A stretch of 64,000 nucleotides of DNA. Source: Saccoglossus kowalevskii (Eukaryota; Hemichordata; Enteropneusta; Harrimaniidae). The notes beneath the pieces were generated by a model. The model had not been told where the DNA came from, did not search any database, and saw only the letters and a program-made list of their open reading frames with translations. Below are positions 14,801-61,560 of the stretch, piece after piece. Numbering within the stretch: the first letter of the stretch is position 1; every line of letters begins with the position of its first letter. The stretch covers positions 1,067,324 through 1,131,323 of the forward strand of contig NW_003140811.1 of assembly GCF_000003605.2 (NCBI RefSeq), written 5' to 3'. Position numbers and translations under genes: made by a program.

Positions 14801-15143
14801 TCCAAATTTAATTTTGAATCGATATGGCCCCTGGCTTGATACCAATATAGTGATGCCAGTATCGGCAAATGAATGCGTAATTATCTACGATTACTACCTG
14901 TTGCAGAGTTTTGTGGATACAACGTCACCGCGTTATCTGCCGAAGTATATTGATGACAGTATATTGGACAGCGACAAACTACAACGTGAGGATAATATGG
15001 TGTGTGAGGGAACTCAGAAAGGGTTGCAGTCGTCGGGGTACGAAGTGGGAAGATATGCTCCACAAGATGAAAAGCCGGACTATGCTTTTCATAGACATTT
15101 AGCCGAGGACTTTAAACAATATTTGAGCCTCCATAGAAATTGA
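11853..15143 (+). CDS. Choline monooxygenase-like Rieske non-heme iron oxygenase, copy 2
   Basis: Exons 11853-12019, 12712-12821 and 14209-15143 join to 403 aa. Intron 1 (TG|G, Trp) and intron 2 (G|GT, Gly) sit at the same codons and phases as in copy 1, and exon 2 is 110 nt in both, so the genes are tandem duplicates. The start is the first ATG in the exon 1 frame. The N-terminus has basic residues and A-L-R-R-Y-A-S, compatible with a mitochondrial presequence. Rieske ligands: C117-x-H119 and C137-x2-H140. Mononuclear iron: H241, H246 and probably D354, with bridging D233 in DNVLDNGYH. N-R-Y-G-P-W-L-D-T-N and C-E-G-T-Q-K-G-L-Q-S match the choline monooxygenase family. By eye about half of the residues of exon 3 match copy 1, so the duplication is old and the substrates may differ. 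Choline as substrate is inferred. Confidence 0.9.
13118..13413. repeat. Direct tandem duplication, two 148-bp units, in intron 2 of oxygenase copy 2
   Basis: Units 13118-13265 and 13266-13413 start with agcacgaaatag and differ at only a few bases (for example tccgtttt/tctgtttt). Recent duplication, no coding content. Confidence 0.9.
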
Positions 15144-26487: not shown

Positions 26488-27905
26488 ATGGAGGCAACAT
26501 CGTTATTTGCTGGGCGCGGACCGAACGTCGGAGCACTAGTGTACTTCGTTCACCTGCAAGATAACATGGTGATTAAAAGAGCTAAAAGTCCGGCTGAAGT
26601 GCTCTATTTGACGGCTGTGGACAGAGGCGACAGAAAAGCAGCCCTTGTTGCTTTGGATAGCCCGGCCAATATCAATAAGGACTGCGTTGACGGCGAAGGG
26701 CGTACTGCGCTCGTTATAGCTATTGAAAATGGCAACATAGGTAAGAAAAACAAACCTTTGTTTTATATTCCTGTTTCAAATGACTGCATTCGCCTCAGTG
26801 CAAATACGTTTTTGACAAACCGTCATATTACGCAGATGAGTGAAATGTCCTCGTTTACATCTTTCGCGAAAAACAATAAAACGTTAAATATTAAGTCTCT
26901 TGGGACCAGTAATTTCTATTTCACTCCAATCAACAGGTGTCGCCATTATTGATAATGTATTTCGGAACTCTGTCCTCCAGCGTAATATTTTATTGGACAA
27001 TTTCGTGGGACAAAGTACTCTCATTAAAATGCCATTCCGTGTCGCTGTGAGAAACGGGTGGTCGATACTGGTGCAACATGTGCTCGCCATTATTTGACTA
27101 ATATATTTACAAAGTTATAGTCGCGGCTCCGTATTTTCAAATTATTTGTTTAACCTCAAGGTAACAAGTACCAAGTAGCATAATATTTTCACACATTTTT
27201 CCGAACTGGCGTAGAAAATCCAAAAGTTGTCAGCAACGAATTCGAAATTTGCATAATCGAACGCGTAACATGAGCCCACTAGACATTTTGTACTCAAATA
27301 TATATATTTCCAACTGTGAACGTTTAATATTATCACAATAAAATAATTCCTTCTGGTATAATCACATATGCTTCCCGAATTATTGCTGATATATGCAAGG
27401 AGGTTTGGAATTGTGTCTTCACGTATGTGTTGAATAATTTTAGTGTAATATTTCGTGTCATTAATTTTAAATTAAGCTGCAAATTCTAATGAGAACATTT
27501 TAAGATGACTGTTAAATAGTGTAGTCCAGGAGTATCGCAGCAATTACGGAGATCAGAACTCAATACAATTCAGCTTTCAGAACACAGCAGAACCTCTTGT
27601 TGCGATGACGCAATTTAAATTTCATGGCAACAGTAATAAAATATTGTAACCAGGCGTGTATTAGCTACTAGTCGGATAGCATATTTACTAGCATATTTAG
27701 GCGTGACATTAAACAGTTGATTTAATAACACACTGGTCGGATTATTAGAGAAATATTTCAGCGAAGGAGAGCCATTTCCATTATAAATTAAATCACCCAA
27801 AGCGAGAAATTGCTTTTCATTATATAGCAAATTAAATATAATTACGTTGGTTCTTATTTTGTTTCATAACCAAGTATTGATTAAGAACGTGCCAAATGAT
27901 GGGCA

Positions 27906-30900: not shown

Positions 30901-33900
30901 TTTACCTGACAGGTATTTTAATTACAATGTAGTTAATTAGGAAACCAAGAGGGAGGTCCCCTTGTCCACAAAACTAAATATTTTCGGAAAGCTTATTGTA
31001 TGAATTAAAAAAAAAATTTAGTATTTTTTTATGGACACTGTAGTTTGAAATATGCACAAAAATGTGCTTTTTTGGTCAAAAGTGATTTAAAAAAAAATTA
31101 GCTCCTAAACCATGCTTCTGTTTCCTGTCAAAATTGGTTTGTGGGTACATTTGTTTACTATGAAGAAAGCGCCGTCTTTAATACTGTCTATCAGTTGTCA
31201 ATTTTGCAGGGCAGCAGCCCAAATTTCACTACTTCAAGTTTATGCATCAATTAACACCCAGGCTAGTTTTCTGTACGATTGCTGTGACACTGTTCAACCC
31301 AAAACAATGCCCCGACGGCGTTTTGAAGATAAACACATTGTCAATCATTTGTGAAGATTTCAAAACAAAAGGTCAAAGCGTCTAGGAGCTATTTTTTTAA
31401 AGTTCTGGGATGTGCACCAAAAAGAAGCTGAGATAATTGCTAATTTGCATAACAATTCACCCAGTAAGAAGTTTGCTAATACTCATAATTAAAATGGATG
31501 TAACAGTTCCAAATTTAAATGTATTATCGTTTTGTTAAAAGTTAAATATAGTGCATAATATGGAGATCCCGTCTTTTTTCACCATGTTTATTTTTTATTA
31601 TTTATGTACAGCCTTGCTAAATCTTGCTAAGCATTCAAAAGAGATAATGTTTGCACCTGTTATCTATATTTTAAAATCGTTGTTTGAGTATGTTCCACTA
31701 TTCACAATTCTACAAAATTTTAACAGTCTATAGCCAAGACTGTTTGAATAATAAAAAGCAAAAAAAAAAAAAAATTCACTCCCAAGTGCGTACAAACATG
31801 CATCTCTACCTTAAGGTAGAAGCCCACTCATAATGTTTGAGAAAATTGGTCATAAATCGCATGACAATATTTTTTTGTTTATTATGTAAAATCATGAGGC
31901 CATTGGCCAATGGCACCATGAAATAGCATTCTTTTGTGTGTGTTACAGTGACGTATTGTGAGAAACTTGTTCTATTATTTTGTTTTTTTAGAGCAATTCC
32001 ATAGAACACAGTGTTAAAAAAAAATTGCATTTTTAACTTTTTTAAAACCCAGAATTTTAAAATAATTGAGGGCAACAAAAAGTACCCCATCATTGACAAT
32101 ATATAATTTGTACAGCCTACTATGTCACCAGGCTACAATTTGAGATATGGCATGATATCTCTGCCATAGAAACCCATGATAAAAGCACTTATAATACTGC
32201 CAAAATGGCCATTATTCACTAAAATAAAATCATCATTTTCGCGAAAATTAAGCTGGTGGCCAAATGACTTTAACTTTCAAAACAATGTTATTGACACTGA
32301 ATACACTAAGAAATAAAGTAGAATCGCGATTATAAAAATGTGTACACAAATATATTGTTATAACGATATGCAGCTTATATGACGTACACTAAAATCAATT
32401 TTCCATTTTGAAATTATGTCGTTGTTATGCAGAAAAACGCCATATTTTTACCAATTTACCAAGTAAAATAATATATACTAATTTAAAGTTATTGATCATA
32501 CATGAGTTGTGAAACACACCACATAGTTTGTAATTTCATTTATCTTATTTCAGACATCAGCTGATCAGCTGTTTTGAGGTTTTTACCCCCCCCCCCCGAA
32601 AAAATGAATCTCACAATGTTAAGAACGGAAAGTCTTTATCGCCGTGTCGATGTTCTATTTATATTATTAGCGTTATTGAATTATTGAATTATTGAATTAG
32701 TCAATGATGACTTTAACTGTAATTTGAACCCAACAATAACACATAAACTTAAACTTGACGCAGATTATTACGCCATTTGAAACCAGATTTTGAGTAATAA
32801 AACATCTCTACATGGCATCGCTTTATATAGTCCAATCCAACTTACATAATTTAATAATACATGTTAAGAAACCACTTCTTTTACACACAGTTTGACCGAA
32901 ATGGGTACAAGTCACGTGACTACCTGTGTGTCAGCCCGATAAGATAAATGCTATTGTTATTCAATCAAATATAGAAACCTGCAAGGCTACCCTCAGTTTG
33001 ATAATTCAACATTAAATCAACGCGGTTAACAGTCCCACTGAAATTTGATTTTAGAACATTTATTTGATTAATCGATTTTATTTTATATGAAATCCTTATA
33101 GCGGGGCATCCGAGTTAAAGACTTAATGACCTCAGTGTACACGAATATGCAACATATCTGATACTGATCTCCTACGTAGTTTGTAATTTACCTTGCTGCG
33201 CTGTTCCGAGAAAATGTATTTTTAATCTACCTATTGATATTATCATTAGGATTTGATTTTGTTAGGAAAAGGTTATCTAGTGTATAATTGGAAAATAGAC
33301 ATGTTAATACGTAACTACACTATTTGTTCAACATAAATATATAAATATACAATCTACCATTGATTATATTGGTTTCCGCACGCTTGTTAAAAGATGTACC
33401 ACTATTATTGAACCAAGGAGACTGAATATGATGTAGCTTTGAGAAGAAATACACTAGAACATCTGCATCAGAAGAACTAACAATCACGCTTCTTGTTATG
33501 CTTTCTGTGCATGCAATATAATATCTGTATCAGTTTCTTTTTTACATGGCAAATACATGAATTGCTGGCTTTCTTGGTTATAAAGCCTGTCATCTAAATA
33601 CAGATTTCAGTCTGCTATTAGATGTGGTGGTGCACATTCTGGTGTGTAGTTTTTCATTTGGAAACTGGGCGTGTCCTGAAATAACTTATCTATGTTTCTC
33701 AACCATATTGATGTTTATAATTATCAGAATACATCAACTGCTTGCATTGAAAGATTCTTGTGCATGCCATGAGAACAGGCCTGTATTTCGGGCTCTTGCA
33801 AGGTATTTGAATGTACTGTGAACGGTCATGAAATCTCGTATAAACACTGGCAGTCTTAATTGTAGTATGATTCTCCGACAAGTCAGTGCTGCTCCCCACT

Positions 33901-36900: not shown

Positions 36901-39900
36901 GTAGAAGATCATTACAATATCTTTTTTTAGGTCCTACGCAATGCCGTAAAATCGAAGCCAAATAAAATAAACTCGCGTGAACTGAACAAATAAAATTCTA
37001 GCAGACACGAAATACAAGTATTCTAGCATCGAATGGTGAAGAGGCATCACCGACGTTGAATTCTATTTCAGAATAAAACTATTTTGCGGATATATTAAGC
37101 GCGGGCACATATTCGTATCGATGTTGGTAATAAATCTTGATTTCCCGCTGAAAAGCTAAAACGCGAGTGGTAATACTGCACTTTGCCCTGGGGAAGGAAA
37201 GTATAAAAACGCACAGGGCGTGCCCTTTAAAAAAGGCAATTATACATATACCATAGCAATAACCATATTTCAAAGCAGTTAATAAAATTCCTGAACGAAA
37301 TCTCAAAATTACAATTAAATTATTGTCTGGGCTATCCCAGTTCTCATTTATGAAATTAATGTGCTCACTACTTACAGTTAGGTGAGTTTTTCAATATCGC
37401 GATTTAATGCGCCACTAGGCATAACGGACGCCGTCGATTCAGAGCTCCATTTCATTTCCTTGTTCGTTGTACTCACAGTGATGGGGCGGACAGCAGTGAA
37501 TACACAAACAGTTGGGGNNNNNNNNNNNNNNNNNNNNNNNNNNNNNNNNNNNNNNNNNNNNNNNNNNNNNNNNNNNNNNNNNNNNNNNNNNNNNNNNNNN
37601 NNNNNNNNNNNNNNNNNNNNNNNNNNNNNNNNNNNNNNNNNNNNNNNNNNNNNNNNNNNNNNNNNNNNNNNNNNNNNNNNNNNNNNNNNNNNNNNNNNNN
37701 NNNNNNNNNNNNNNNNNNNNNNNNNNNNNNNNNNNNNNNNNNNNNNNNNNNNNNNNNNNNNNNNNNNNNNNNNNNNNNNNNNNNNNNNNNNNNNNNNNNN
37801 NNNNNNNNNNNNNNNNNNNNNNNNNNNNNNNNNNNNNNNNNNNNNNNNNNNNNNNNNNNNNNNNNNNNNNNNNNNNNNNNNNNNNNNNNNNNNNNNNNNN
37901 NNNNNNNNNNNNNNNNNNNNNNNNNNNNNNNNNNNNNNNNNNNNNNNNNNNNNNNNNNNNNNNNNNNNNNNNNNNNNNNNNNNNNNNNNNNNNNNNNNNN
38001 NNNNNNNNNNNNNNNNNNNNNNNNNNNNNNNNNNNNNNNNNNNNNNNNNNNNNNNNNNNNNNNNNNNNNNNNNNNNNNNNNNNNNNNNNNNNNNNNNNNN
38101 NNNNNNNNNNNNNNNNNNNNNNNNNNNNNNNNNNNNNNNNNNNNNNNNNNNNNNNNNNNNNNNNNNNNNNNNNNNNNNNNNNNNNNNNNNNNNNCGTCGT
38201 GGACTTGCACCCGTTGACAAGCTGAGTGAAAAGTAATACGATTAAAGAAATCGAGAAAGGAACGTTTTACTTGCGCAAATTATAAATAAAGTGTTTAATG
38301 GTGTATAATTGTACACGGTCGACTTGTTGCCGGAATAAGTTTATTGATATGATAATAACTTATTTAATACGGTTCAGCGGTTTAGTTGTTCCACGACTGT
38401 TTTTTTCTATCAGGTGCACACGTGGACGATTAGGGCAATTAGCATAAAGTGACGTAATGCGGTTAGTTTTCAGTTCAGCAAATTAAAATGAAAGTTTTTG
38501 GTTTCACATAGCCAAGTAGTAATAAAAGTAACTCTTTGTCGCTATCGCTCTTCCTTTATTTCCTAATATTGGTGAGTGTATTATTGCGGGTCATTTTTCT
38601 CTTTCTTTTATTTCGTTAGGACAAGAAACACATTTGAAGACCTGCACATAACCACGCTTTTCAGTCTTACCATGACTACTCGTAGTATGTGGGTATATTA
38701 CTACCAAACGATACTCAGATTCGTTCATTATATACACTAAAGCAAAAAAAATACTGATCTAAATTAATTTTATCTGTAACATCTAGAATACTAATCTAAT
38801 TTCATTTCATCCGAAACAAACAAAATACTCGTCTATTTTACGTGCGCAATGCACATTTCGCGTTCTTGTTATTGTAGTTCTCGATCCAGTGCACGTATCG
38901 CCGTTCAAAAGCAACGCGTGGCGCCGTTGTAGAGAGTTGTGATCAACATATTGTTTGTTTAGTTGCATTATATTTTTATTTTTTATGTGACATCAATTAT
39001 AAGCTCAATTAGAAATAAAATAAAATACCAATAATTTCTAAATATAAGTTTTTTTATACTTTTTATTTTTTCTGCAACACCCCATTATTACACCTGTAGA
39101 TACGAGTTGTATTTTGACAATGGTTAGTCTTTTATGAATATCGTTCAGACCCTCTTTTCAATCGCTTACTGCTATTTATATAAACAGTAAATAACATGGG
39201 ACTACAAGCTGAAACAATAACACCATCCACGTAATAAATCAAAGTAAACGTAACCCAGTTCACAAGCTTTCACATTAACCCCCAAAATATTGTATCAGAA
39301 ATGAAAGATGTAAAATATTCAGTCCACTGTAGGTTGTTTAACCTAAATTTGGTTTTTCCTTTATGACGCATTTAGAAAATTAACGACTTTCGCTGTATTT
39401 TTTTATCACACAATATAATGGTGGTAATAAATCAGCACAGCTGGCGATATATTTATCAGAATGTGCCTGCTTTGCAATAATATTCACATATTAATAACAT
39501 TTAACATAAAAATAATTTATGTCCCATAGTACAATAATAAATGTTTGTGAACAGTTGGGACACATATAAAGATTAAAAAAGAAGTTGTTTAAATATGTTG
39601 AGTCAGTGCTAAGAAAAACAGAGATGAAAATATATTTTTAAACAAGAATTTCTTAAATAATGTTAAGTACTATGCGCAGTGTACATGCAAGTTACGGTAA
39701 TCGTAAGATATTCGATATATTTAATGTGGAGTCATTGTATCACTTTCTTTTGAAATCATAGAAGAACTGCTATACCATACCACCCGAGTTGTACTTAGTT
39801 CACATCCGATGCAATATTTGACAATAATAATTGTCCTACAGAAAAATATGTCGCGAAAACCTAAGCTTTCAGTTTGTTCCGACAGTACGACTTTAAGGTA

Positions 39901-42900
39901 GAAATGCAGTTTACCTGACAGGTATTTTAATTAGTTAATTATGAAACCAAAATGACCTTCCTTGTCCACAAAACTATATATTTTCGGAAAGCTTATTGTA
40001 TGAATTTTAAAATTTTTTTAGTATTTTTTTAATGGACACTGTAGTTAGAAGTATGCACAAAAATGTGTTTTTTTGGTCAAAAGTGATTAAAAAGAATAGC
40101 TTCTAAACTATGCTTCTGTTTCCTGTCAAAATTGGTTTATGAGTTCATCTGTTTACTATGAAGAAAGTGCCGTCTTGAAAACTGTCTACCAGTTGTCAAT
40201 TGTGCAGGGCAGCAGCTCAAATTTCACTACTTCAAGTTTATGCATAAATTAACACCCAGGCTAGTTGTCTGTGCGATTGGTGTGACACTGTTCAACCAAA
40301 AACAATGCTCCGACGGCGTTTTGAAGATAAACACATTGTCAATCATTTGTGAAAATTTCAAAATAAAAGGTCAAAGCGTCTAGGAGCTATTTTTTTTAAT
40401 GTTCTGGAATGTGCACTAGAAAGAAGCTGAGATAATTGCTAATTTGCATAACAATTCACTCAGTTTGCTAATGCTCATAATTAAAATGGCTGTAACAGAT
40501 TCAAATTTAAATGTATTATTGTTTTGTTAAAAGTTAAATATAGTGCATGATATGGAGATACCGTCATTTCTTTTTTTTCACCATGTTTCTTGTTTATTAT
40601 TTATGTACAGCCTTGCTAAGCATTCAAAAGAGATAATGTTTGCACCTGTTATTTACATTTTAAAATCGTTTTTTGAGTATGTTCCACTATTTACAATTCT
40701 ACAAAATTTTAACAGTCTATAGCCAAGACTTTTTTGATAATAAAAAGCAAAACAAAAAATTCACTCCCAAGTGCCCACGAACCTGCATCTCTATCTTAAT
40801 TGGAAAGGAACACTGCAATATTTGGTATTCAACGGCAAAGTTGGAGAGGTGGTCTCCGAACAGAATAAAGTACTTTGGCTTTACGATAGTAAATAAAGTC
40901 CCACAAAAAACTTGGATGTCGTGATTGTCAAGTCAAAACACTGAGATCGATAGAGTTTCATGATAAATAATTTACATACTTAGGTAATCAATGTCTTATT
41001 ACTGTACTGTACTGCTGTGCATTAAACGAATTCGACAACTACTAATAACCCACCAATCAACCAATATTGTTGACCACGACTAGATGTATTGAATATGTGT
41101 ACCTTCCTGCATAATATGTTTTACGCGCGTGATTTAAAAATAGTTCATTAAGAAATAGTGTAAGCTCAAATGTGTGTCCATTGCATCACCTATAAGTGCG
41201 TCTGCAACTCCTGTGCAGTCGAGACAGTCAATGCCATTTATAGAATTACCATCGACAGTTTACATAGATGAGTATATTTATGCAATAGAAGACATTTTGA
41301 ATTGGTTTTGTGAGTCAAATAATCCGGCTTTTTCACTGTTAAATGATATGTAATTCCCCCATTATGGCACACGGCAACAGTCACGCAACATACATCTTCC
41401 AAGACAATGTGTAAGTGCCCAATACAATATAGGCTGAAAGCAGCAATAACACAGTTAATGTTGCAATTGAGTGAAAACAGCGATCATTCAGATCTTTTCG
41501 CTTTTAAGGCAAACACACGATTCGACTTATAGGAAACTGTGTATGAATTCAAGGTCCATGTGTTCTATTTATGACAAACGTTGAATGCATTCCTAGCCGT
41601 TTTTGACCACGTGTTCAATCTGTACACACTTCCTGTTGACAGTACTGTCCATGAAATTTAATCTTGACCAAGTTTCTGATACTGATATCATAGCTTATAC
41701 ATACTTCATACTAAACACGATGTAGCATTGACTGGAGCCCTACCAGGAACATGTTGTTTCTCCGCGTTTCTTTATTTATAACTCCAGGTTGAATATAAAT
41801 CACTATTCTTGTTTTGTTTTAGATTTAGTAGAGCTTCTATTAGAGAAAGGAGTTCGTATTGGCGATGCCCTTTTACGAGCCACGGACGTGCAATTTGTTG
41901 CCGCCATAGAACCGATATGTGACCATTTAAATAGACAAGGAAAGCTAAAGGTGCGTAATATTTTATTTTACACTGCCATTCTGAAGGTACGGTGACAATA
42001 CGTTTTTGGGGGTATATTATAAAGGTTTCTGACTAAGTAATGTCAAGTTACAATCATGTAGTCTTACAAAGGGCACCGAACAAAGGCACAGTTTTATTAG
42101 TATTAATAATATATCGCTTCCCATTTGCTGTTCGACAGGATGGGTTGAACTGTCGCGACTCTAAAGGTGATCTCCATCCAGATATCACACCCGTGGTGTT
42201 AGCCGCGCATCATAATAATTACGATATACTGAAAACGTTGTTGGAATATGGCGCCTATCTTCAGGATCCAGATATGAGTAATACTCACGATTTTCAAACT
42301 ACGGAGTTTACTCTGGAGTACTCGATCGGTAGGATTAATATATACAGGGCACTGGCAAGTGAAGCTTATATAGCGCTGACCAGTGAAGATCCAATTAATA
42401 CGGCATTTGAGCTCAGTTGGAAACTCCAACAACTAAGTGAACGTGATTATGAGTTTCATTTTCAGTATATTGAACTGGCCGACCAGTGCGAGCAACTGGC
42501 TGCCGACTTGTTGGGTCAGGTACGTGACTCTAGAGAACAAAGTATTGTTCTTTCGCACGATCCCAAGGAATGGGTGACGAGTCGAGACTTCCACGAACCC
42601 AATAAAGTGAAGCGAGCCTTACGATTGAACCAGAAAAAGGTAACTGCAGTCTTTGTCTTCTCATCATTCAAGCTATGTTCTATGTCAAGTACAAGCAATG
42701 TACAATATGTTATAAAGTATGGAGACTATACATTGTCACAAGTTAGCCACTATCCACTTTGATTTAATAAACGGTATTATTTCTAACCGCTATTTTCAAC
42801 ACGTATATGTGACCATAAATATATTTTCTGGAACCTTAGATAGCATAAAATGATTAATTCTGCTCGACGGATTTGCTACGAATAAAAACACTTGTTACGC

Positions 42901-45900
42901 CTCCGCGTAACGCAATATGGCAGCACGTCACGGCCTCACCTTGACGTTTGTGGCGTTTCACGAGTGCGGCGGTGTGCCATGCAGCGGTATATATTCACGA
43001 TACCAGCGAATGAATCTTCAGCATGGATGCACACCATTACGAGGACGAGGAAATGGTGTTCTGTTGTTATTACATACGTTCCCATATTTTACGAAAATCG
43101 CCAGGAAATTCTCAACCAATTCATCCAAAATTGTCTTATGAGTGCGCGCAAAAGCAGTGATCTATTTTAAACTTTAACTATTATTGATTAATCAGGCATT
43201 TTATTCTATTCATATGCAAATGTTTACAGACGCGCACGTTGCAGGTTGTCGTAGTGTTGACGACAATTTTCTTCATGCATAATTAATTAATAACATTACC
43301 AATTGCTTGGTGACGTCATTTGATATACAGCTAATTACAGGATTCTGTTTATTTCATAATTCTTTGTGTTTCTGTGTAAATAACAAGAGCTGTTTGCAGT
43401 GAAGAAGCGTGATGTGTCATGCCTACTGTAAAATGTGTTTTTTTAGCTGGTATATTATTGTAGCAAATACATTTAACCTGTAATTTCGCTAATTCAAGAT
43501 GTCGCTAATTCAAAATTAAGTTTATTGACACAATTAGCTTGTTGGCACTTAAGATTTTGTTTAATGAATGCATTAATCAAATTCGTTGAAATTATATGAG
43601 CCATTCCAACGTCTTTAACAATATGCGGTGGATCCATTAATAAAGTTGTATTAATTTCATACCTTAAATTCATAATTGCAATACTTGACTGAATTTAAGC
43701 TTGAGGGACCAAGGCACGACTAATTCCATTGTTTGACGTGCATTGAAATGAACACGGTTCAGTAAATTTCTTTAATTACTTTCACTAACGGGATGACCAC
43801 GATATATGCTCGCATACGATCAGTATAGACAATGCAGTTTGCCGATCAATATGATTACCCTTTGGGATGTATACGCTAAATGAGGTATCTTTGTAACAAG
43901 TTCATTCAAAGGTATGGAAACGGTACATCAAGCCAAAAGTGCATATTCCGTGAGTTGTAATGACATTGGAATTTTATTGCCTAGTATACCTTACGAAAAA
44001 CGGACTTTCAAAACAAATATCGACTTGAAAGAAATTGCAATTACGCATAGGACAAAGCCCTCATATGAGGAATCTCTTCTGTTCTGAGATATAAAGTCAC
44101 ACCAAAAATATAATGTCGAGGCCGCAGTTCGAGGCGTTTTTTCGTGGGGAGTCTAATAGTTGAACTGACTATTAAAACTTGCAGGAATGTATAAACAATT
44201 AATACTGTTTCCGTTTATGACTCGTTTTCTCAAATATCTTTGTTCTCATAATTTTGTTTAAGACTTTCAGTTCTAGGACTTGTATACGTCTTTGTCCTCA
44301 TAAAATGTATAACGTGACATATGGATAGCAGCACACTAGATGCTAGATGCTAAAGACATTCTTTTTATTACAGTTTGTGGCTCATCCTCACTGCCAGCAA
44401 CAGCTAATCGAATTGTGGTACCGAGGTCTTCCATCGTGGCGTAAGCAGCACGTGATGCAAGCCTACATGATTTCATTCGGCTTGGGTCTAGCCTTCCCCT
44501 TCCTCTGCCTCTGCCATATCTTTGCGCCTGGCAGCAAACCCGCATTGTTGCTTAAAACCCCGTATGTACGTTTCATCTGCAACGTTGCGTCGTCTCTAGC
44601 GTTCCTGATTCTATTATCAATACAAGCCGTCGACTTTCATACAGTGATGCAACCACACGCCAATCTAAACAAGTCCGAAACTGAAGAGATGGATCAGCTA
44701 AGAGGACAACACGTTCTATTCACAGAGGCTCTTGTTATGTTCTTTGTTTTCTGTAAGTATTTTTTATAGTAACAGACTGATAACCAGGGATGCAGAAATT
44801 CTGTTTGTGCATCTCGTGCCACCTCTTCCAGTGTATCACTGTTTCTGTTAATTGCTAAACCCACGAAAAAACAAAGATAATATCCAGATTACAAAATTAG
44901 TAAAATTATCGAAACTTTCCGTAACTAGTGTTTGTAACACCCTTTTATTATTGGTAATAGTTCATTGATAAGTTTATAGATTCGTAAAAACAGAATTGGT
45001 TTCAATAAGATCATGATATGTCAGCAATGTACGGATATTACTGTATTGTATCATTTTAGTATCCTTCTTTAAATATTTAACAAGGATGACGTAATAAGCA
45101 AGAGTGTGCTCACTTCTATCAAAGTAGGTTTGTTTTGCTATTTAGTTAGTAGTCACAGCTGTAGTGATATACGATGCACACGGATAAAGTGACATTTTGC
45201 GTGCTGCATTTGCGACATGGTGATTTGCAAATGTCAACATTTCATTGAATGCGGTTTTTTTGTGTTCTTAGGTCACACGTCATCTGAAATCCAAGACATT
45301 ATGAAAACAGGAACTAGAGGTATAAAGTATAATTTTACTTGGAAACTTCTGGATTACATGATGTTATCATTATACTGGGCATGGATTGCATTGAGAATCA
45401 TTGCGACATTGGAGGTAAGGTATTTCAATAACGTTTCACATGATTACAGGTGGTGTTGTCAGCAAGTCTATGATTACAGTTAACACACGAATTAATCAAC
45501 GTGGCAGTCGTAAATAATTTAACATACTGAACATGCATATTTATCAATTACAATCCATGCATATATTATGCTAATATTTGGGGATGACGTCACTTTGAAC
45601 CGTGAACTATACATAACAAAACTGTATGATGATAGAATAGAACGCTTATAGAAAATTATTCACCAATAATTCTATGTTTCATTAGACTGAATGCCGTTGA
45701 CGAGATATAAAAACTAGAAAACCAGAAAAGAAATCAAAGCAACTGTTTAATTATAATAATCATAATGCCACACGCTGCCATAATTGAAGCCTACGTTCTC
45801 ATTGGTCGATCGGGACTAAGTGAAGACGATAATTATGTAGTGATTGAGAACAATGAAAGAACATACGGACAAGATTGTGTGTGTCACACAGAATTATCCG

Positions 45901-48900
45901 TTGTTTTCCACACATTTGTACGCAGATTCTTTCATTCCGTAATGTTCCGGTAAAAACAAATGTTGATTTATTGTTTGTGTTTAAAATCAGAAACTGAAAT
46001 TATTTAGGTTATAATAATATCAAATATTCATCAGATTTATTATTACCACATTCATAAAATCTTCTCCCGCTGGAATATGTGGATTTACCAGCATGCGTTG
46101 ACAAAATTAAAAAGTTAGCGTAAATTATTGACTTAACCACTACCGGGATCATAATTCAAAACTACAAGGCCGACGATTGAACGTACGTTTCCAGCCAGGT
46201 GAGAGTCATTGGAATGTACATTTAACAAAATATATGACGTAATTTGGTAATGGCGGTGAAATCGTGCTGATGCACTTGAATAACTTAACTAAGTGCTGCA
46301 AAATAGAAGCGATCATTTGCTAAACATACCAACAAATATGTAAATTTAGCTACTTAAAAAATACAGCTAATATAGTCGAAATAAAACAATAATATTGTAC
46401 CCAAATAAAGTATCAAGGTATATGAACAGTTGTGGATGAAATTAAACTGCCACACTACACAAACTGCTGATTTTGATTGGATGGAACGCATCCAACGTAT
46501 GATTTGGGTGACTATTTGGTTATAGCTTACTTACATATTGAAAATTTATAGCAAGTACTAGTGTTTCTTGATATGATAAATGCTGTATTTACAGACGATT
46601 CTTATTTTCTTTTTACTTCTCAATACTAATTGTTGTTGATTTTTTTCCTTTTTTTCTCTCTCATGTTTGTATTGAGAAATTCCACCCGCAGCTGATTGGA
46701 ATGCAGGATACGGTGAATGGTAATATCACCAAGACGGAATTGGTCTATGATGACAGCCAGAGTGACTATGTGGACGATTTCTATTACAGTGATTACTACG
46801 GTAATAACGCTAACAATGTGCCGTCGGAACAAGACAGTAGAATGGTGGAACTGCTAAAGCGGCAGAGTGCAATGGAATTAACGCTGGAAAGAATATACGC
46901 TAAACTGAATGAAGCAGAATTAAACCCGGATATAAACAAACGAGATCGACGGGCTGTGCGCCGGCCAAAGCGACCATCCAGTGGAGGGGGGTCAGCTGGG
47001 GCAACAGACGCACCAGCGGAAGACTCCGCGATTGCCAGGCTCGACTCGTTGCATCCTATCTTAGTGGCCGACGGTATATTCGCAGTAGCCAAAGTGCTCA
47101 GCTTTTTACGCGTCATACGAATGACTGTTGTGCATCTGAATGTGGGTCCCATGCAGATTTCCCTGGGCAGGATGACTTATGATATTGTGCGTTTTCTTGC
47201 AATATTTACCCTGGTTTGGTTCGCGTTCTCTGTTGGATTGAATCAGCTTTACTTCCACTACACAAGGGAGCACGCTGTGACTTGTGGTATGGAAGCAGCT
47301 GGTCGTAAGTGCAACCCACCTTATGGCAGGTAAGGCACATTTTCATGAAGCCTTTTGATTCGTATATTTATGCTACTTGTAGATTTATATACAGCATATG
47401 TATATATATACCGACAAAACAAGACCAAACTTAATATAGTTGTTTTGTTTTGGTTAGAAAGTTACCTGTATTAAGTACTTCATTTTAAATCACTATGCCG
47501 TTGTAGCATACTATTACATCAGAAACACAGTTAGACGACACTTGATTTGTTCGGGTATACCTTTTTACAAAGCATTCAAAATGTTAGAACCTCCAAAGTA
47601 TTTAAATCGGTAATTACCATTCAACGAACTATTTCTATTTAAACAAAAATGACGGGTGAATAAATGAATTAATTGAAGGAATTTGGGGAGGGGGTATACA
47701 GAATGGTCAAAAGGATTATCCGATTACCAGTTTTGTTTCGAGAAGATGATAATTCAAATCGTACTTATAAAACTGTATGGCGCCATGGTTTAGCGACTTA
47801 ATATTAATGACGTAAAGATCAATAACCTGTACTCAAGTCCCACATGTGGTTGAGGTATTTTCAACACGAAGAGAATATGATACATAGATCATCCCTTATA
47901 TAAGAAATCTCATGCTTTGCCATGGTCAGTAGTGAAAAAGTAGAAAACATTCTACGGCAATGTCATTTGTTTCCTTTTCTGAATAATAAAATACAACTAC
48001 ACGTATCATCTTTTTTATTGTCTAGTTAGTTGAACATTCCAATGCGTGTGCTGCTGCAATAATGTAGCATCTTCTCCTATGCGCTTTACAAAATCAAAAA
48101 TCAACAGTTTCAGTTCGTTTTCAGATTATTTCAGAAATCGTATCATATCACTGCATATTAGGTTCTCCGGATTCTATTTAAAATTGCCACGTGTCGCCCA
48201 ATAATGACCTCTTCCATTTACGACACAATTGTTTGATCCCGGTGTAAGTGTAATGAATGATTTAATGAATGAATTAATTAATTAAAAGACACAATCCACG
48301 CATTTTGATTAACTTGGCACCTTTACCAAACGCATGTATTCGCTTTATTTGCTTTGCTAGTGTTTCTAATGCTTTAGCAACACTATTTTGGACGCTGTTT
48401 GGGTTGTCTGATCTATCGAGCCTAAAGATTCTTCACATGGATCATTGGTTCACGGAAATGGTTGGACAGATGCTATATGCTGCATACCACGTGCTCGCTA
48501 TTGTTGTGCTGCTCAATATACTTATTGCAATGATGAGCAACACCTACACCAAGATCGAGGTGAGTCGCACCACATCATAATCTTGCGGAGACTTTGGCAA
48601 GTGCACAATGGGGTGTTGGTCACGGTCGACGTTGGATTTACTTCCGATCAGCAATAATATGGGGTTCTTAGACTGATATTTTAGTATTCCACCTTGAGCG
48701 TTGTCGTGCCGAAAATATTAATGCTTAATTGTCAACATACACGTTACCTTTGAGCAATGAACAAAATATAATGTGTAACAACTTAGTTTTCGGCGTACTG
48801 TTGTAAATATATCACCCGGAAAATTCATAAACATGTGTAAAATGAAGCGTAAAGGCTCTCGATCGACTGGTTTTGAAATTACCTCTTTTAGTTTTTGTAT

Positions 48901-51637
48901 CGCAGGTGCGCGGTTTGTAATGTAACAACTACACACTATAATAATATTATTATCTATCGTTATTTAGATATATCAATATCAGTTACGTAGCATACATTGT
49001 TGTCGGTGACGTATACGTTGCTATAGTTACATGTCTGGGCTGTCTGGAAGACAAAAAAATATCGCCACCCTAATGGTGGTAAATATTCGTAGTTTAGGTA
49101 TTGAAATGTACAAGATAGATAATTTGTATTACAACTGTTGTGTACATTGACGTTGATGGGTCCAATGATTGTGTTGGGGGAGTGGTGTCATGTGCAATAG
49201 TTATGCAATTTAGCGCGACGAAACCATTAACCTTATATGTGCCGATATTCACCGGTGCATCAGAACCGTTAGCTTCTGTCAGTCAGTGAAATGACTCTGT
49301 ATTGTTCACGTGTTTGCACTGAGCATGCGTACGTCAGTGCATAGTTTTTTGTCTGATCCGATATAGTAGTTCTCTAGTGTCTACTGGGGGAATTCCCCCA
49401 GATAAAACTGAACAATTAATTAAGAAATGTGCATGTTAATTTTATAGGAAGACGCTGACATGCAGTGGAAGTACGCCAGGTCGCGATTATGGTTGAGTTA
49501 CTACGAGAAACGAACAGCACTAGCGCCACCATTCAATGTGTTTCCAACCTGGGACAGCTTCCGAAAGATCATAAGAACATTTAAAAGAAAGATTTACGGC
49601 AATTCTATGGAAAGAAAAAAGGTATGTTATTTTTGTCAATCTGTTCTTTTTTCGGAATTGTTTTTGGATATATTGATTTACAATAAATACATTGATTAAC
49701 ATATTGTTCAACTTTAGTCTTCAATGTTACAGAAAGTGGTGATATAATGTTTTAATAAAACCTTTATTTACCATGTGTTCAGAAAGCTTAGATAGAGAGA
49801 AACACAAAATAAATATACTAAATAGTTTGTTTAGTTAAGTTTCACGTGACATTGTCAAAATGATTAAATCCGCGCGTTCGATAAAACACTGTAATATTTC
49901 TTGCTGAAATTTATGGCTTATATACTGAGAGTTACTAAGTGCATGTAAATGTGTTCTGGCAGTTTTAAGAACATATTTTAAAAGAGTTGTTCAAGCTCAG
50001 TACTTCACTACTACTTAACACATTTGATGGGCTGTTACCCTATGAAATATTGACATTATCCTTGCCATGTGAATAATCGTTATTCTCACATATCCACTTC
50101 GTGCCTCCTGGCACATTAAAGCCATAACGCTTGTCTTTCAGTTCTGTCTGTCTTGTGCACTTCATCTGACCTCATTCCAAATGTTCCATCCACCCAACTT
50201 TCTTTCCTTTTCCGCTGTTCACCTCCATGTTGCCCAATATATTCAACTTGTACTCTCTCATGACTTTTGCTACATGTGCTCTTTTTCATATTGCGTACAT
50301 TGTTCTTACATTCAAGTTCAATCCCAATATTAAGAACTTGTTTTGGCTTTGCAAGTGACTCCATCAGTCGATGGACTTCCTTGCGGCTTTCACCCAAAAA
50401 CGTAATCCTGCTCTGGTTATCAGAGAATCTGATGTTATCATCCTCTGTTTTAAAGCCTGATTTAGTTCAACTAATCGGAATTAGTATGAAACGTATGGCA
50501 CAAGCGTAGTAGAGGTGACTCTGACTTGTGAGATTCAGTATTCAGTAGCGGCTACCTAGCTCGAATGATTTGCTGTGTTATTACAACAAAATACCAGTGC
50601 TACTTGGAGAACAAAGTAATAATATTTTAAAAAGAATAATGTCACACAAAACCGCGGAAATTGTGTGTTAGTGTTCATGTAATCAGGGAGTAAACCATCG
50701 TCAGACATTGCTGTGACAATATATTAACAGACTGTTAACAGATAGGCAATAGTTCCGGCGCATCTGATAAATACACTGTAAAAATAGAAACATGTCCAGC
50801 AGGATGCATCAGCGACCCTGTAAAGTTTCATTCATTCGTCGCTCAGTTTTTATTACAGGACCGGTATTCACTTGGGAGTATGCTATAAAGAGAAGCAGCG
50901 TGGAGTCAGCGAAACGCGGTGATATTTGCCTTGATATAGACCAGCACAAATATGAAACGTTGCCTCGTCAGTTTGTTAACGTATCTTGTATGACGTTGTT
51001 ATAATCTGTTTGCATTGCAGAAAAAGAGAAGTATTATTGAAAGAAAGCACAAAGAATACAGGGTCTGTGATGTGTTTGTTTGTTTTCTGTATTTATCTGC
51101 AAATTGAGCTCTGTAAATATCGACCATCTTTCAATCGTATCAAAAACTGTGTGATACATACTCATTTATTCTTAACTACGTTTGTTTGCGTCACTTTTAC
51201 AGGAGGTCGTACAGCAACTGACGCAGCGTTACCTTTTTCAACGGAAGCGAGTGGGTGAAGATGACGATAATAAAGTTGGTCCGGAGCCATGGATAGCAGA
51301 TCTCAAACGTGACGTTTCAGGATTCAAATACGATTTACTGCAAAGTCTCACCGATATGGACAGTAGGATGAAAGATATCCAAGAACAGATAGACGAGGAG
51401 AAAAAAGAACCCACACCCAGTCCTGGCACGGAGATTGAACACGCGCTGAGAAACTGTATGAATGACCCACCGCCTAAACCCAAACCCCCAAAACCTAAGC
51501 GAAATAATATGCCGTCGACGAGTCCCCTCACGCAAGGTACCTTCACGAAGAGGGGGATGATTCAAAGATCGTTACGATTCGCCGACGGATTTTACGAGGG
51601 GGAGGTCGACTACACGTCAGATGAAGAGACTGTGTAG
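26488..51637 (+). CDS. TRPC-type (canonical transient receptor potential) cation channel, 963 aa
   Basis: Ten GT-AG exons keep frame throughout: 26488-26740, 41823-41950, 42139-42639, 44374-44752, 45272-45414, 46692-47329, 48361-48559, 49448-49621, 51021-51062, 51203-51637. An in-frame TAG lies 5' of the ATG. Residues 20-190 are ankyrin repeats (GRTALVIAIENGNIDLVELL), followed by the TRP_2 region with R-x-N-I-Y-R-A-L-A-S and the linker helices. Hydrophobic segments: pre-S1 326-345, S1 361-380, S2 about 409-421, S3 446-467, S4 from 590, then S5, pore and S6. The pore has the TRPC L-F-W motif (689-691) after a cysteine pair (C666, C675); S6 reads V-V-L-L-N-I-L-I-A-M-M. The TRP box is Q-W-K-Y-A-R (753-758). 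The C-terminus has a coiled-coil-like region and a proline/lysine-rich tail ending E-E-T-V. TRPC channels are tetrameric, Ca2+-permeable and usually PLC-coupled. S3-S4 is enlarged and the zinc site is absent (see findings). Confidence 0.93.
26741..30883. other. First part of TRPC intron 1
   Basis: Start of a 15,082-bp intron (26741-41822). AT-rich, with an (AT)n run at 27909-27942. No exon or recognisable element seen in this part. Confidence 0.4.
27909..27942. repeat. (AT)n microsatellite
   Basis: About 17 AT units without interruption, within TRPC intron 1. Confidence 0.95.
30888..31810 (+). mobile_element. 0.9-kb non-autonomous TTAA-flanked DNA transposon, copy 1
   Basis: Starts GGTAGAGATGCA and ends TGCATCTCTACC, a perfect 12-bp terminal inverted repeat, with TTAA on both sides (30884-30887 and 31811-31814). 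The interior matches 39897-40795 nearly end to end with scattered substitutions and small indels. No transposase frame is present; the longest open frames are short. TTAA targets point to mobilisation by a piggyBac-type transposase. Confidence 0.88.
31815..32250 (+). repeat. Dispersed repeat sharing the TTAA junction of the preceding element
   Basis: Begins GGTAGAAGCCCACTC directly after the TTAA that ends the element at 30888-31810, so a second TTAA-type element may abut the first. Its reverse complement matches 1675-1965. The right boundary is not clear; no matching inverted end was found. Confidence 0.55.
32330..32700 (+). repeat. Dispersed repeat, copy related to 55000-55430
   Basis: Shares in order: aattttc..attttgaaatt, gcagaaaaa.gcc, aagtaaaata, catgagttgt, cacatagtttgtaatttcattta, then tcacaatgt..agacggaa. 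Clearly homologous but diverged. Contains a C-run at 32588-32600. Confidence 0.65.
32701..35809. other. Middle of TRPC intron 1
   Basis: AT-rich intronic DNA. No exon, gene or clear repeat recognised apart from short simple runs such as AAAT repeats near 35315. Confidence 0.4.
35810..35930. mobile_element. Foldback element with about 43-bp inverted arms
   Basis: Left arm 35810-35853 begins AGGTTATTACGATGATACC; right arm 35888-35930 is its reverse complement with about seven mismatches, ending GGTATCGTCGTAATAACCT. The loop is about 35 bp. The flanks (tattatatg and tattattat) could be a TA-rich target duplication. It would form a strong hairpin in intron RNA. Confidence 0.75.
36004..36232 (+). 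mobile_element. MITE with TGTAAAACATG-type inverted ends
   Basis: Left end ctattgtaaaacatgttg and right end gacgtgttttacagtg are imperfect inverted repeats. The interior has repeated tagcga/cgctaaattcgcgaaa blocks. The right half matches, inverted, 43424-43527. Confidence 0.65.
36233..37379. other. TRPC intron 1, no gene seen
   Basis: AT-rich intronic sequence with an (AAC)n-rich run near 36798-36833 and the short duplication agcaacggcat at 36610-36635. Confidence 0.4.
37380..37517 (-). other. Possible partial coding exon on the minus strand, cut by the assembly gap
   Basis: From the gap edge the minus strand is open for 46 codons to a TAA, ending with a hydrophilic stretch (KEMKWSSESTASVMPSGALN). 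It is less AT-rich than its surroundings. The plus strand is also open here, so this may be chance. No family recognised. If real it would be a gene nested in TRPC intron 1. Confidence 0.15.
37518..38194. other. Assembly gap, 677 N
   Basis: Run of N inside TRPC intron 1. Long X-filled frames across it are artefacts. Confidence 1.
38195..39892. other. TRPC intron 1 after the gap, no gene seen
   Basis: AT-rich intronic DNA without recognisable features. Confidence 0.4.
39897..40795 (+). mobile_element. 0.9-kb non-autonomous TTAA-flanked DNA transposon, copy 2
   Basis: Same family and same orientation as 30888-31810. Ends GGTAGAAATGCA and TGCATCTCTATC, with TTAA at 39893-39896 and 40796-40799. 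Slightly shorter (899 versus 923 bp) through small deletions. No transposase frame. Confidence 0.88.
40800..41822. other. End of TRPC intron 1
   Basis: AT-rich, no gene seen. The acceptor tract cttgttttgttttag closes the intron. Confidence 0.5.
43424..43527 (-). mobile_element. Half copy of the TGTAAAACATG MITE in TRPC intron 3
   Basis: TACTGTAAAATGTG at the start, then cgctaattcaagatgtcgcta; this is the reverse complement of the right half of 36004-36232. Confidence 0.6.
50110..50470 (-). mobile_element. Decayed LINE reverse-transcriptase fragment in TRPC intron 8
   Basis: The minus-strand frame around 50116-50460 resembles the RT region after the catalytic aspartates: a D-D-N-I-R-F-S-D-N-Q start, then a helical segment ending L-N-I-G-I-E, then R-V-Q-V-E-Y-I-G-Q, which parallels the usual V-x-x-Y-x-Y-L-G-Q. 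Much of the rest is unrecognisable, and the frame ends in a stop. Weak to moderate support. Confidence 0.5.
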
Positions 51638-59289: not shown

Positions 59290-60375
59290 AGACATATACA
59301 TGATCTTCTCTGTGAGACAACTCCAGGAAAAGTGCAGGGATAAGCGATAACCTCTATACTTGGCCTTCGTTGACCTTACCAAGGCCTTCGACCTGGTAAG
59401 CCGCAGTGGCTTATTCAGTCTTCTCCAGCGCCTACCAAAGCTCCTAAGCCTAATCAAGTCTTTCCATACAGACATGAAAGGCACTGTCAGCTTCGACGAG
59501 GATTCATCTGAACCATTTGACATTCGTAGCGATGTTAAGCAAGGATGCGTGCTCGACCCCACACTCTTCGGCATCTTCTTCGCTCTCCTTCTGTACTACA
59601 CTTTCGATTCTTCATCTGACGGCGTTTACATCCACACCAGGCACGACGACACGACGGCAAACTCTTCAACTTGGCTCGGCTCCGGGCCAAGTCCAAGATC
59701 ACACGTGTTCTTCTCAGAGAAATGGTGTTTGCTGATGGTGCTGTTCTTGCGAGTCTCACCCATGATGGTCTTCAACGACTTATGGACCGCTTCTCTAAAG
59801 CCTGCAAAGGGTTCGCTCTCACAATCAGCATTAAGAAGACGGAGGTAATGGCACAGGACCCTCCAATACCACCCTCTATCACAATCGATGACTTGCAGTT
59901 GGCTGTGGTCGACAACTTCAGATACTTGGGCTCAAACATCTCTCAGACCCTGTCTCTTGATGTGGAGATAAATGTTCGCATTGGAAAAGCCGCAGGAGTG
60001 ATGTCCAAGCTAACAAAGAGAGTCTGGGAGAACAAAAACCTGACTCTTAGCACGAAGTTGAAAATCTACCATGCACTCTTCTATACAGTAGTGAAACATG
60101 GGCAACTTACACAAGACAGGAGGCTGAACTGAACGCCTACCACATGAGGTGCCTACGTCGACTATTAAGGATCACTTGGGAGGATAACATCAATCTTTGC
60201 CATGCAGAGTCAAAGACGACTGCGCAGATTTCTTCTTCGGGGACTGTGACAAGGACTATCACTCAAGGATTGTACTCTACAGCCACCGCAGACGCTGCCC
60301 AAGTTCAACCACACCATGGCGCAACCCATCGTCTTCCTAAACGGACGGAGGCCGACGACGACGAATTTTCAAGAT
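59290..60375 (+). mobile_element. LINE (non-LTR retrotransposon) fragment, reverse transcriptase, broken
   Basis: Begins inside the RT with R-Q-L-Q-E-K-C, then A-F-V-D-L-T-K-A-F-D, K-Q-G-C-V-L-D-P-T-L-F and, in another frame from about 59671, F-A-D-G-A-V-L. The second catalytic aspartate of the F-A-D-D motif is glycine. The RT continues with I-S-I-K-K-T-E-V-M and F-R-Y-L-G-S-N-I-S. A third frame near 60144 reads M-R-C-L-R-R-L-L-R-I-T-W-E-D, and a last piece near 60236-60292 keeps the C-terminal Cys/His motif C-x3-Y-H-S-R-I-V-L-Y-S-H-R-R-R-C. The part between the last two is deleted. It is 5' truncated, with several frameshifts. Codons are more GC-rich than the surroundings, as expected for a relatively recent insertion. 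This LINE type is widespread in molluscs and other invertebrates; I do not assign the clade firmly. Confidence 0.85.
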
Positions 60376-61118
60376 TTCACTCAGTGTTATTGCATAATTG
60401 TTTAGAGCATCAGAAGAATGGACTTAATTCTGTAATCACCTTCGCTGTTTCTTACATACTGACACAGGAGTATTAGTTTATTGGAATATTGTAACTTGTG
60501 TACAATTGAGCTATATCTGCACAGAGTGACTCTCTACTTACAATAGATGACAGAGATTGTTAAACGATGGTTAAACATACAACTGCCCTGTCTATTGAGC
60601 ACTTTAAACAATCCATTCCGATGTTTGTAGAATTAGTCTTTAGTGAGGATCACTTAGTTTTTTTTCGTAACTTCTCCAAGTCTTGTTAATATGGGCACCG
60701 AAGCAAGGTGAACTATGGATAGTTGTATTTGTTAGATATGGGCAATATACTACGTTGAAATTGTTTTATAAAACGTCTTCTATTAAAAAGAATCAAGGAA
60801 AACTGTCGTCATAGAGCTAAAAACCATACAACTCGGTTGTCTTGCTGGATTATTCAAATTCAAGTCTTGTTCCCCTTACGTAATTATTAATGTATACAAT
60901 CCATTAAAATAAACAAAGTATTATGCTGATAAACAGGCATTATAAACTTTTGCATAGACATGCTCGGTGAGAAACACAAAATATATTCCAACAACGTTCG
61001 TCGCACTACCCACCAACCAATATATCCGAAGCATCAACTGAACCATATCAGCAACCATGAACAACACAATTACAATATAACATTATTTTTTCAGTTAATC
61101 TTTTACTGAGCAGCGCAT
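60376..61118. other. Intergenic, no gene seen
   Basis: AT-rich sequence without recognised features. Confidence 0.4.
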
Positions 61119-61560
61119 TCATGTATCCTAGGTCGTANNNNNNNNNNNNNNNNNNNNNNNNNNNNNNNNNNNNNNNNNNNNNNNNNNNNNNNNNNNNNNN
61201 NNNNNNNNNNNNNNNNNNNNNNNNNNNNNNNNNNNNNNNNNNNNNNNNNNNNNNNNNNNNNNNNNNNNNNNNNNNNNNNNNNNNNNNNNNNNNNNNNNNN
61301 NNNNNNNNNNNNNNNNNNNNNNNNNNNNNNNNNNNNNNNNNNNNNNNNNNNNNNNNNNNNNNNNNNNNNNNNNNNNNNNNNNNNNNNNNNNNNNNNNNNN
61401 NNNNNNNNNNNNNNTTGTGTATACATGTATCCTAGGTCGTATTGTGTATACATGTATCCTAGGTCGTATTGTGTATACATGTATCCTAGGTCGTATTGTG
61501 TATACATGTATCCTAGGTCGTATTGTGTATACATGTATCCTAGGTCGTATTGTGTATACA
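61119..61560. repeat. 27-bp minisatellite, interrupted by an assembly gap
   Basis: Unit ttgtgtatacatgtatcc followed by taggtcgta. More than five identical units are visible at 61415-61560 and part of one at 61119-61137 before the gap. The length being a multiple of three keeps all frames open; none is coding. The unit holds the palindromes gtatac, tacatgta and cctagg. Confidence 0.95.
61138..61414. other. Assembly gap, 277 N
   Basis: Run of N within the 27-bp minisatellite; the true array length is unknown. Confidence 1.

Follow-up and report, generated by a model that had tools for sequence, protein, structure and literature searches.

A TRPC-type channel gene of Saccoglossus kowalevskii carries, at the 5' end of its S4-encoding exon, a 119-residue S3-S4 linker whose coding nature is confirmed by the sequence analyses below and which should be extracellular, judged by TRPC topology. 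The gene lies in the window, the 64,000-nt stretch of DNA analysed here, and the exon in question is its sixth. Long linkers of 65-181 aa were found in 12 of the 13 readable TRPC loci of the genome, this exon-6 gene included. We tentatively favor an explanation in which these loci form a lineage-expanded TRPC group whose extracellular linker module would be glycosylated, would act on the S1-S4 domain and, in the sub-clade of the exon-6 gene, would be cut by a proprotein convertase. We infer both cleavage and function from sequence features.

The gene was spliced by hand (Table 1), and residues are counted from the first ATG at 26566, which is itself uncertain. Pfam searches with the predicted protein returned Ank_2 (2.1e-10) and TRP_2 (1.7e-17), i.e., the ankyrin repeats and TRP_2 region expected at the N terminus of a TRPC channel, together with Ion_trans (4e-14). 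By sequence the protein was closest to solved TRPCs: a phmmer search against the PDB listed TRPC4 (8e-146), TRPC5 (2.8e-141) and TRPgamma (2.9e-132), then TRPC3, TRPC6 and TRPC1, and NOMPC at 7.4e-25. The channel domain likewise conforms to the TRPC pattern, with an LFW motif at residues 663-665 and a TRP helix, MQWKYAR, that aligns with IEWKFAR of TRPC4. One common trait is absent, namely the short S3-S4 linker of 12-38 aa seen in the solved TRPCs that were measured. The length of this linker is a variable and not a defining feature of TRPC channels. In the S2/S3 region encoded by the exon at 45272-45414, the alignment revealed WKLLD in place of the WNLMD of TRPC4/5. We take this place to be the calcium site of TRPC4/5, and calcium regulation may therefore be altered.

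Table 1. Features of the TRPC gene and its S3-S4 linker, in positions of the window
Feature	Position	Strand	Basis
TRPC gene, ten coding exons, 937 aa	26566..51637	+	Hand splicing with GT-AG ends, frame kept; presumed start ATG
TRPC coding exons	26566-26740, 41823-41950, 42139-42639, 44374-44752, 45272-45414, 46692-47329, 48361-48559, 49448-49621, 51021-51062, 51203-51637	+	
NKSE sequon N367, between S1 and S2	44668..44679	+	Alignment to TRPC4
Exon 5, ends with S3 (E442), phase-0 donor	45272..45414	+	Same donor place in paralogs
S3-S4 linker, residues 443-561, 119 aa	46692..47048	+	Hand-spliced model, TRPC4 alignment, codon statistics
NITK sequon, N453	46722..46733	+	Sequence
Tyr/Asp-rich stretch 461-478, candidate tyrosine-sulfation region	46746..46799	+	Sequence; shuffle test; sulfation conjectural
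Heptad-patterned helix, residues 488-519	46827..46922	+	Heptad test; AlphaFold helix, exon residues 46-77
Furin/proprotein-convertase consensus RDRR (526-529), then A; 32 aa before S4	46941..46952	+	Sequence; similar place in C814, C211 and C3897
Second consensus match RPKR (533-536), then P; 25 before S4	46962..46973	+	Sequence
Gly/Ser/Ala-rich spacer before S4	46974..47048	+	Sequence; pLDDT under 50 for most
S4, S5, start of pore region	47049..47329	+	Alignment to solved TRPCs

The alignment with TRPC4 consists of two stretches, with breaks at residues 442-446 and at 560-561. Measured between the residues equivalent to E442 and L562, the interval amounts to 12 residues in both TRPC4 and TRPC5, 21 in TRPgamma, about 38 in TRPC3/TRPC6 and 119 in the exon-6 gene; the comparison lengths derive from alignment end coordinates under the assumption that no gap lies near the ends, the TRPC3/6 figure includes the extended S3, and TRPC1, whose S3 did not align, stands outside the comparison. 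A first-pass annotation of the window had arrived at the same count of 119 linker residues but assigned exon 6 to residues 469-680, where the hand-spliced model gives 443-655. Its figure of about 20 residues for the TRPC3 linker looks low, because the TRPC3/TRPC6 interval is about 38.

Exon 6 is 638 nt long, open, bounded by GT-AG and entered in phase 0; a pyrimidine tract precedes its acceptor, and its donor reads GTAAGG. Codon use was scored with a model trained on the rest of the TRPC gene and on the two Rieske-gene ORFs of the window, with the linker left out. The linker scored +0.339 bits per codon in frame and between -0.199 and +0.021 in the five other frames, and 158 intron windows of the TRPC gene had a mean of -0.368 (sd 0.128, maximum -0.046). 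None of 5833 overlapping intron windows of linker length was open. The G+C content was 49% in the linker region versus about 33% in the flanking introns. Taken with the open frames of the paralogs and a dN below dS in their linkers, these codon statistics bear out the earlier claim that exon 6 is real coding sequence. It is very improbable that the first 357 nt of the exon are wholly or partly intronic, or that its acceptor is wrong, and that mature channels carry a short linker. A candidate acceptor AG does exist at 47063-47064 (exon start 47065), but its use would remove the first S4 residues and shift the frame (frame 1) against the phase-0 donor. The codon statistics of the linker, the paralogs, whose exon begins at the same place and whose linker is open, and the dN/dS values described below likewise speak against it, and a hidden intron was rejected on the grounds of frame, codon use and paralogs. 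An origin from a mobile element or repeat was also rejected: in the 572-Mb genome, the linker protein matched solely its own locus. Of the repeats listed for 45200-48600, those that touch the linker do not exceed 14 nt: a direct copy and an inverted arm, each of 14 nt.

All parts of the linker named in the first-pass annotation are present, i.e., the NITK sequon (N453), the Tyr/Asp stretch, a charged helix (488-519), a basic cluster (525-536) and a Gly/Ser spacer. The basic cluster was correctly recognized, but the convertase consensus inside it, which is kept in three relatives, had been missed. Shuffling the linker letters 5000 times reproduced the Tyr/Asp cluster in 0.04%, the basic cluster in 0.02%, the two furin motifs in 0.16% and the heptad score in 1.5% of cases, all four being measures picked after the sequence was seen. 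The heptad score of the linker, a home-made one and not a published coiled-coil predictor, corresponded to p 0.013. The single linker sequon did not exceed chance in shuffles (p 0.70). The protein contains a third sequon, N415, which lies between S2 and S3 and thus, by TRPC topology, on the cytosolic side. R-X-K/R-R occurs nowhere in the other 818 residues. The second of the two linker matches is followed by P, a poor P1' residue for proprotein convertases. Sulfation of the tyrosines in residues 461-478 is a guess from composition.

We modeled the exon 6 product with AlphaFold2 on an 11-row alignment, which resulted in a mean pLDDT of 57.7 and a pTM of 0.28. The model contains a short, 10-residue helix (exon residues 24-33) and the long helix listed in Table 1; the 10-residue block means of pLDDT across exon residues 41-80 were 52, 68, 68 and 53. 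Values under 50 were obtained for exon residues 1-44 and 78-112. The latter stretch follows directly on the helix and holds both furin matches, and RDRR is thus predicted to be exposed. The linker matched no Pfam family, and its best PDB match had an E value of 0.48, which is not significant. With a low-confidence model that consists of helices only, the linker does not resemble a folded binding domain, and the proposal that it is a ligand- or ion-binding ectodomain is unproven.

The linker is not unique to one channel, as 11 further TRPC loci of the genome possess long linkers. The first-pass annotation had regarded the insert as something other TRPCs lack. This holds for the solved TRPC3/4/5/6 and TRPgamma chains and for one paralog, but not for those 11 loci. 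The readable loci are the exon-6 gene, C814, C211, C1053a, C3897, C3977 and C2917 and two each on C1005, C934 and C1752 (designated a and b); a fourteenth, C1053b, was not counted, its S4 region lying in Ns. The S4-S6 region as genome query gave 45 matches, and a query with C2917 gave 14, all in loci already counted. Weak matches at or after S6 in C3365, C1298, C3976 (three places) and C211:123071 stand outside the count, and more, or more distant, TRPC genes are possible. Matches in C1468 and C3046 appeared TRPN-like and TRPM-like by eye and were excluded. The one conventional TRPC found is C2917, whose linker measures 18 aa and which falls together with TRPC4 at 100/100. Where S3 ends and the linker begins lies a phase-0 intron that the long-linker loci and C2917 have in common. 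An in-frame GT donor after S3 was found in 9 of the 11 other long-linker loci and in C2917, and in C934a and C934b a further donor is present three codons downstream; the S3 exon of C1005a was read on a separate stretch, and the exon start of C3977 was deduced from the acceptor alone. The S4 exon of C1752b contains an in-frame stop that is missing from its near-copy C1752a; C1752b may be a pseudogene or an assembly error.

The sequences of the linkers align only weakly with each other. The linker of C814 was 33% identical to that of the exon-6 gene over 54 aa (E 0.003). Among the other linker-only comparisons, C1005a/C1005b, the best non-sibling pair, reached 7e-4, C1005b/C3897 0.002 and C211/C814 0.009; the exon-6 linker gave 0.48 against C211 and 0.82 against C1005b. 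In the phylogeny, C814, C211, C3897 and the exon-6 gene formed one clade with moderate support (89/93), which is below the mark of 95/80 and involves long branches. Without the long-branched C3897, the remaining three grouped at 93/97, or at 91/91 with five rows left out; these values, too, fall short of that mark, at which level a grouping counts as neither demonstrated nor refuted. The long-linker loci stood apart from C2917 and TRPC4 at 100/100 when C3897 was left out.

For pooled motif counts we used 10 non-redundant linkers, from which the near-copies C934b and C1752b were dropped. These linkers contain 30 N-glycosylation sequons versus 16.1 expected, a number reached by 1 of 1000 shuffles. 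R-X-K/R-R occurs in five of them (6 motifs) against an expectation of 0.24 linkers, and none of 1000 shuffles gave five. In the clade of four, the consensus reads RDRR in the exon-6 gene and RVRR, RKKR and RRKR among its three relatives. In the exon-6 gene, C814, C211 and C3897, respectively, it is followed by A, A, S and S and ends 32, 34, 33 and 30 residues before S4. Among the 11 other long-linker paralogs, the motif occupies a similar place in three, lies elsewhere in C1752a/b and is absent from six. The C1752a/b site is near the linker start and is kept as RRKR/RLKR despite neighboring changes. Because the four clade members, if the clade is real, inherit one site, the number of independent gains is about two. 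Convertase P-domain exons gave five matches in the genome. Heptad scores were at p<0.03 in five of the 10 linkers (exon-6 gene, C1005a, C1005b, C211 and C3897) and above that threshold in C814 (0.66), C934a (0.23), C1752a (0.70) and C3977 (0.17); C1053a had no window to score. The linkers of C1005a (181 aa) and C1005b (139 aa) combine strong heptad stretches with an acidic lead and, in contrast to the furin-site clade, lack a furin motif.

Two recent pairs of paralogs report on selection. For C934a versus C934b, dN/dS was 0.127/0.336 in the linker and 0.014/0.105 from S4 on; for C1752a versus C1752b, the corresponding values were 0.076/0.131 and 0.024/0.154. The ratios are thus 0.38 and 0.58 in the linkers versus 0.13 and 0.16 from S4 on. 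The linkers, according to these substitution counts, look coding and constrained, though less so than the channel core.

According to the explanation that we tentatively favor, the 5' end of the S4 exon encodes a long, presumably extracellular S3-S4 linker throughout the lineage-expanded group. As read from the sequences, the linker opens with a lead that can be glycosylated and that some members have made acidic and rich in tyrosine; a heptad-patterned helix follows in about half of the linkers, and a spacer leads into S4. By TRPC topology, the linkers of all four subunits should reside on the extracellular face, where their helices may pair among themselves or bind a partner. Glycan and linker may act on the S1-S4 domain and set basal activity, by analogy to E2 glycosylation in TRPC6. 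In the sub-clade of the exon-6 gene, C814, C211 and C3897, the linker would be cleaved by a proprotein convertase on its way through the secretory pathway, at a point after R-X-K/R-R that lies 30-34 residues ahead of S4. The extracellular end of S4 would be freed from the helix module, and the two halves would be held together through the membrane domain. We infer glycosylation, helix pairing, cleavage and the gating effect alike. A more specific reading, possible but rather doubtful, is that of a protease-gated TRPC. The convertase cut in the sub-clade would serve as a switch or generate a tethered peptide, free the voltage-sensor-like domain and shift channel activity up or down. On maturation each subunit would then be divided into two halves: S1-S3, which carries the helical module on the outside, and S4-S6, whose newly created extracellular N-terminus would be flexible.

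How do these linkers compare with known channels? The exon-6 gene shares ankyrin repeats, TRP_2, pore, LFW motif and TRP helix with its best PDB matches, TRPC4, TRPC5 and TRPgamma (presumably the Drosophila channel), and differs from them in its linker, as described above. It also differs in the pore cysteine pair, which is C640-x8-C649 here and C553-x4-C558 in TRPC5, as given in an excerpt of PMC7016788. With TRPC3/TRPC6/TRPC7, which have an extended S3 and an extracellular domain, it has in common an extracellular module made with the S3-S4 linker. In excerpts from the literature, the extracellular domain of TRPC3 is composed of S3 and the S1-S2 and S3-S4 linkers and is proposed to be a sensor. 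The TRPC3/6/7 linker is, however, about 38 residues long, and those excerpts do not describe for it any heptad helix with a convertase site behind it. TRPC6 bears glycosylation sites in E1 and E2 (excerpts of PMC4092855 and PMC7016788), and the sequons N367 (E1) and N453 (E2) follow the same pattern. The same excerpts state that removal of the E2 site rendered TRPC6 constitutively active and that a site added to TRPC3 lowered basal activity (PMC4092855, PMC7016788). Another study, cited in the excerpt of PMC7016788, found the TRPC6 glycosylation sites important for surface expression. In a literature search by title and abstract opening, with preprints and most subscription journals outside its scope, the matches listed included neither a TRPC that bears such a linker nor one that is cut by a convertase; they likewise contained no sulfated or furin-cut TRP channels and no long invertebrate TRPC S3-S4 linkers. 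The excerpts of PMC9776813 and PMC8294545 contained nothing on the S3-S4 linker.

Processing in extracytosolic loops occurs in other channels: ENaC is processed by furin and TRPML1 by cathepsin B. The exon-6 gene resembles both in that one of its extracytosolic loops contains a candidate site for processing by a protease of the secretory pathway or the lysosome. The TRPML1 loop, however, is S1-S2, ENaC has another channel fold, and cleavage in the exon-6 gene is a prediction from its letters. Polycystins and mucolipins are TRP-superfamily channels with a large folded extracytosolic domain between S1 and S2, whereas the present insert is located between S3 and S4 and corresponds to no Pfam family. 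To our knowledge, it is not settled how TRPC channels receive signals from outside the cell, and their extracellular face belongs to the parts that are less understood. The expanded long-linker group and the short-linker paralog C2917 in the same genome constitute a natural experiment in which an influence of linker glycosylation and proteolysis on TRPC activity can be tested directly. Should the convertase cut prove real, proteolysis of a sensor-domain linker would join the ways in which TRP channels are regulated.

Two other readings have to be weighed against the preferred one. The linker might have little specific function and be a largely disordered, glycosylated spacer whose length drifts and whose basic runs and heptads are by-products of composition. 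We consider this a real possibility, albeit one we would not lean on. The wide range of linker lengths, the weak similarity between linkers, the higher dN/dS ratios of the linkers than from S4 on, the two stretches with pLDDT under 50 and the missing furin motif in half of the linkers all fit such drift. Drift alone accounts poorly for a dN below dS, for sequons and furin motifs in excess of shuffles, and for a furin consensus that four diverged paralogs hold at 30-34 aa ahead of S4.

Alternatively, the linker might be a binding module that is not cleaved. A ligand, the matrix or a partner protein would then attach to the helix and to an acidic, possibly sulfated Tyr stretch, and glycans, for example heparan sulfate, to the basic cluster. 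This is unlikely in our view. It agrees with the non-random Tyr/Asp and basic clusters, with an acidic/aromatic stretch that recurs, by eye, in C1005a, C1005b and C934a, and with the excerpted proposal that the TRPC3 extracellular domain senses external stimuli. Yet no domain family or significant PDB match was obtained, and the acidic stretch is, again by eye, not kept in C814, C211 and C3897, the three relatives that share the furin site.

Several further observations concern the window and the genome. Two blocks with closely similar translations lie inside the first TRPC intron, at about 31109-31733 and 40162-40722. Runs of N occupy 37518-38194 and 61138-61414, and a short tandem repeat array, seen in translations, lies at 61.1-61.6 kb. 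Frame-broken reverse-transcriptase fragments are found at 59351-60476 (+), where two of three pieces match RVT_1 below the Pfam cut-off. In the mitochondrial contig C4830, cox1 and the pair nad1 and cox2, both recognized by eye, occupy opposite strands, and tRNA-Gln and tRNA-Ala adjoin cox1. Finally, the window of this animal genome contains two genes for Rieske ring-hydroxylating oxygenase alpha subunits, at 5424-6359 (+) and 14178-15143 (+), with the Pfam domains Rieske and Ring_hydroxyl_A. The nearest solved relatives of the 14178-15143 product are ring-hydroxylating dioxygenases, a demethylase and a carnitine monooxygenase.
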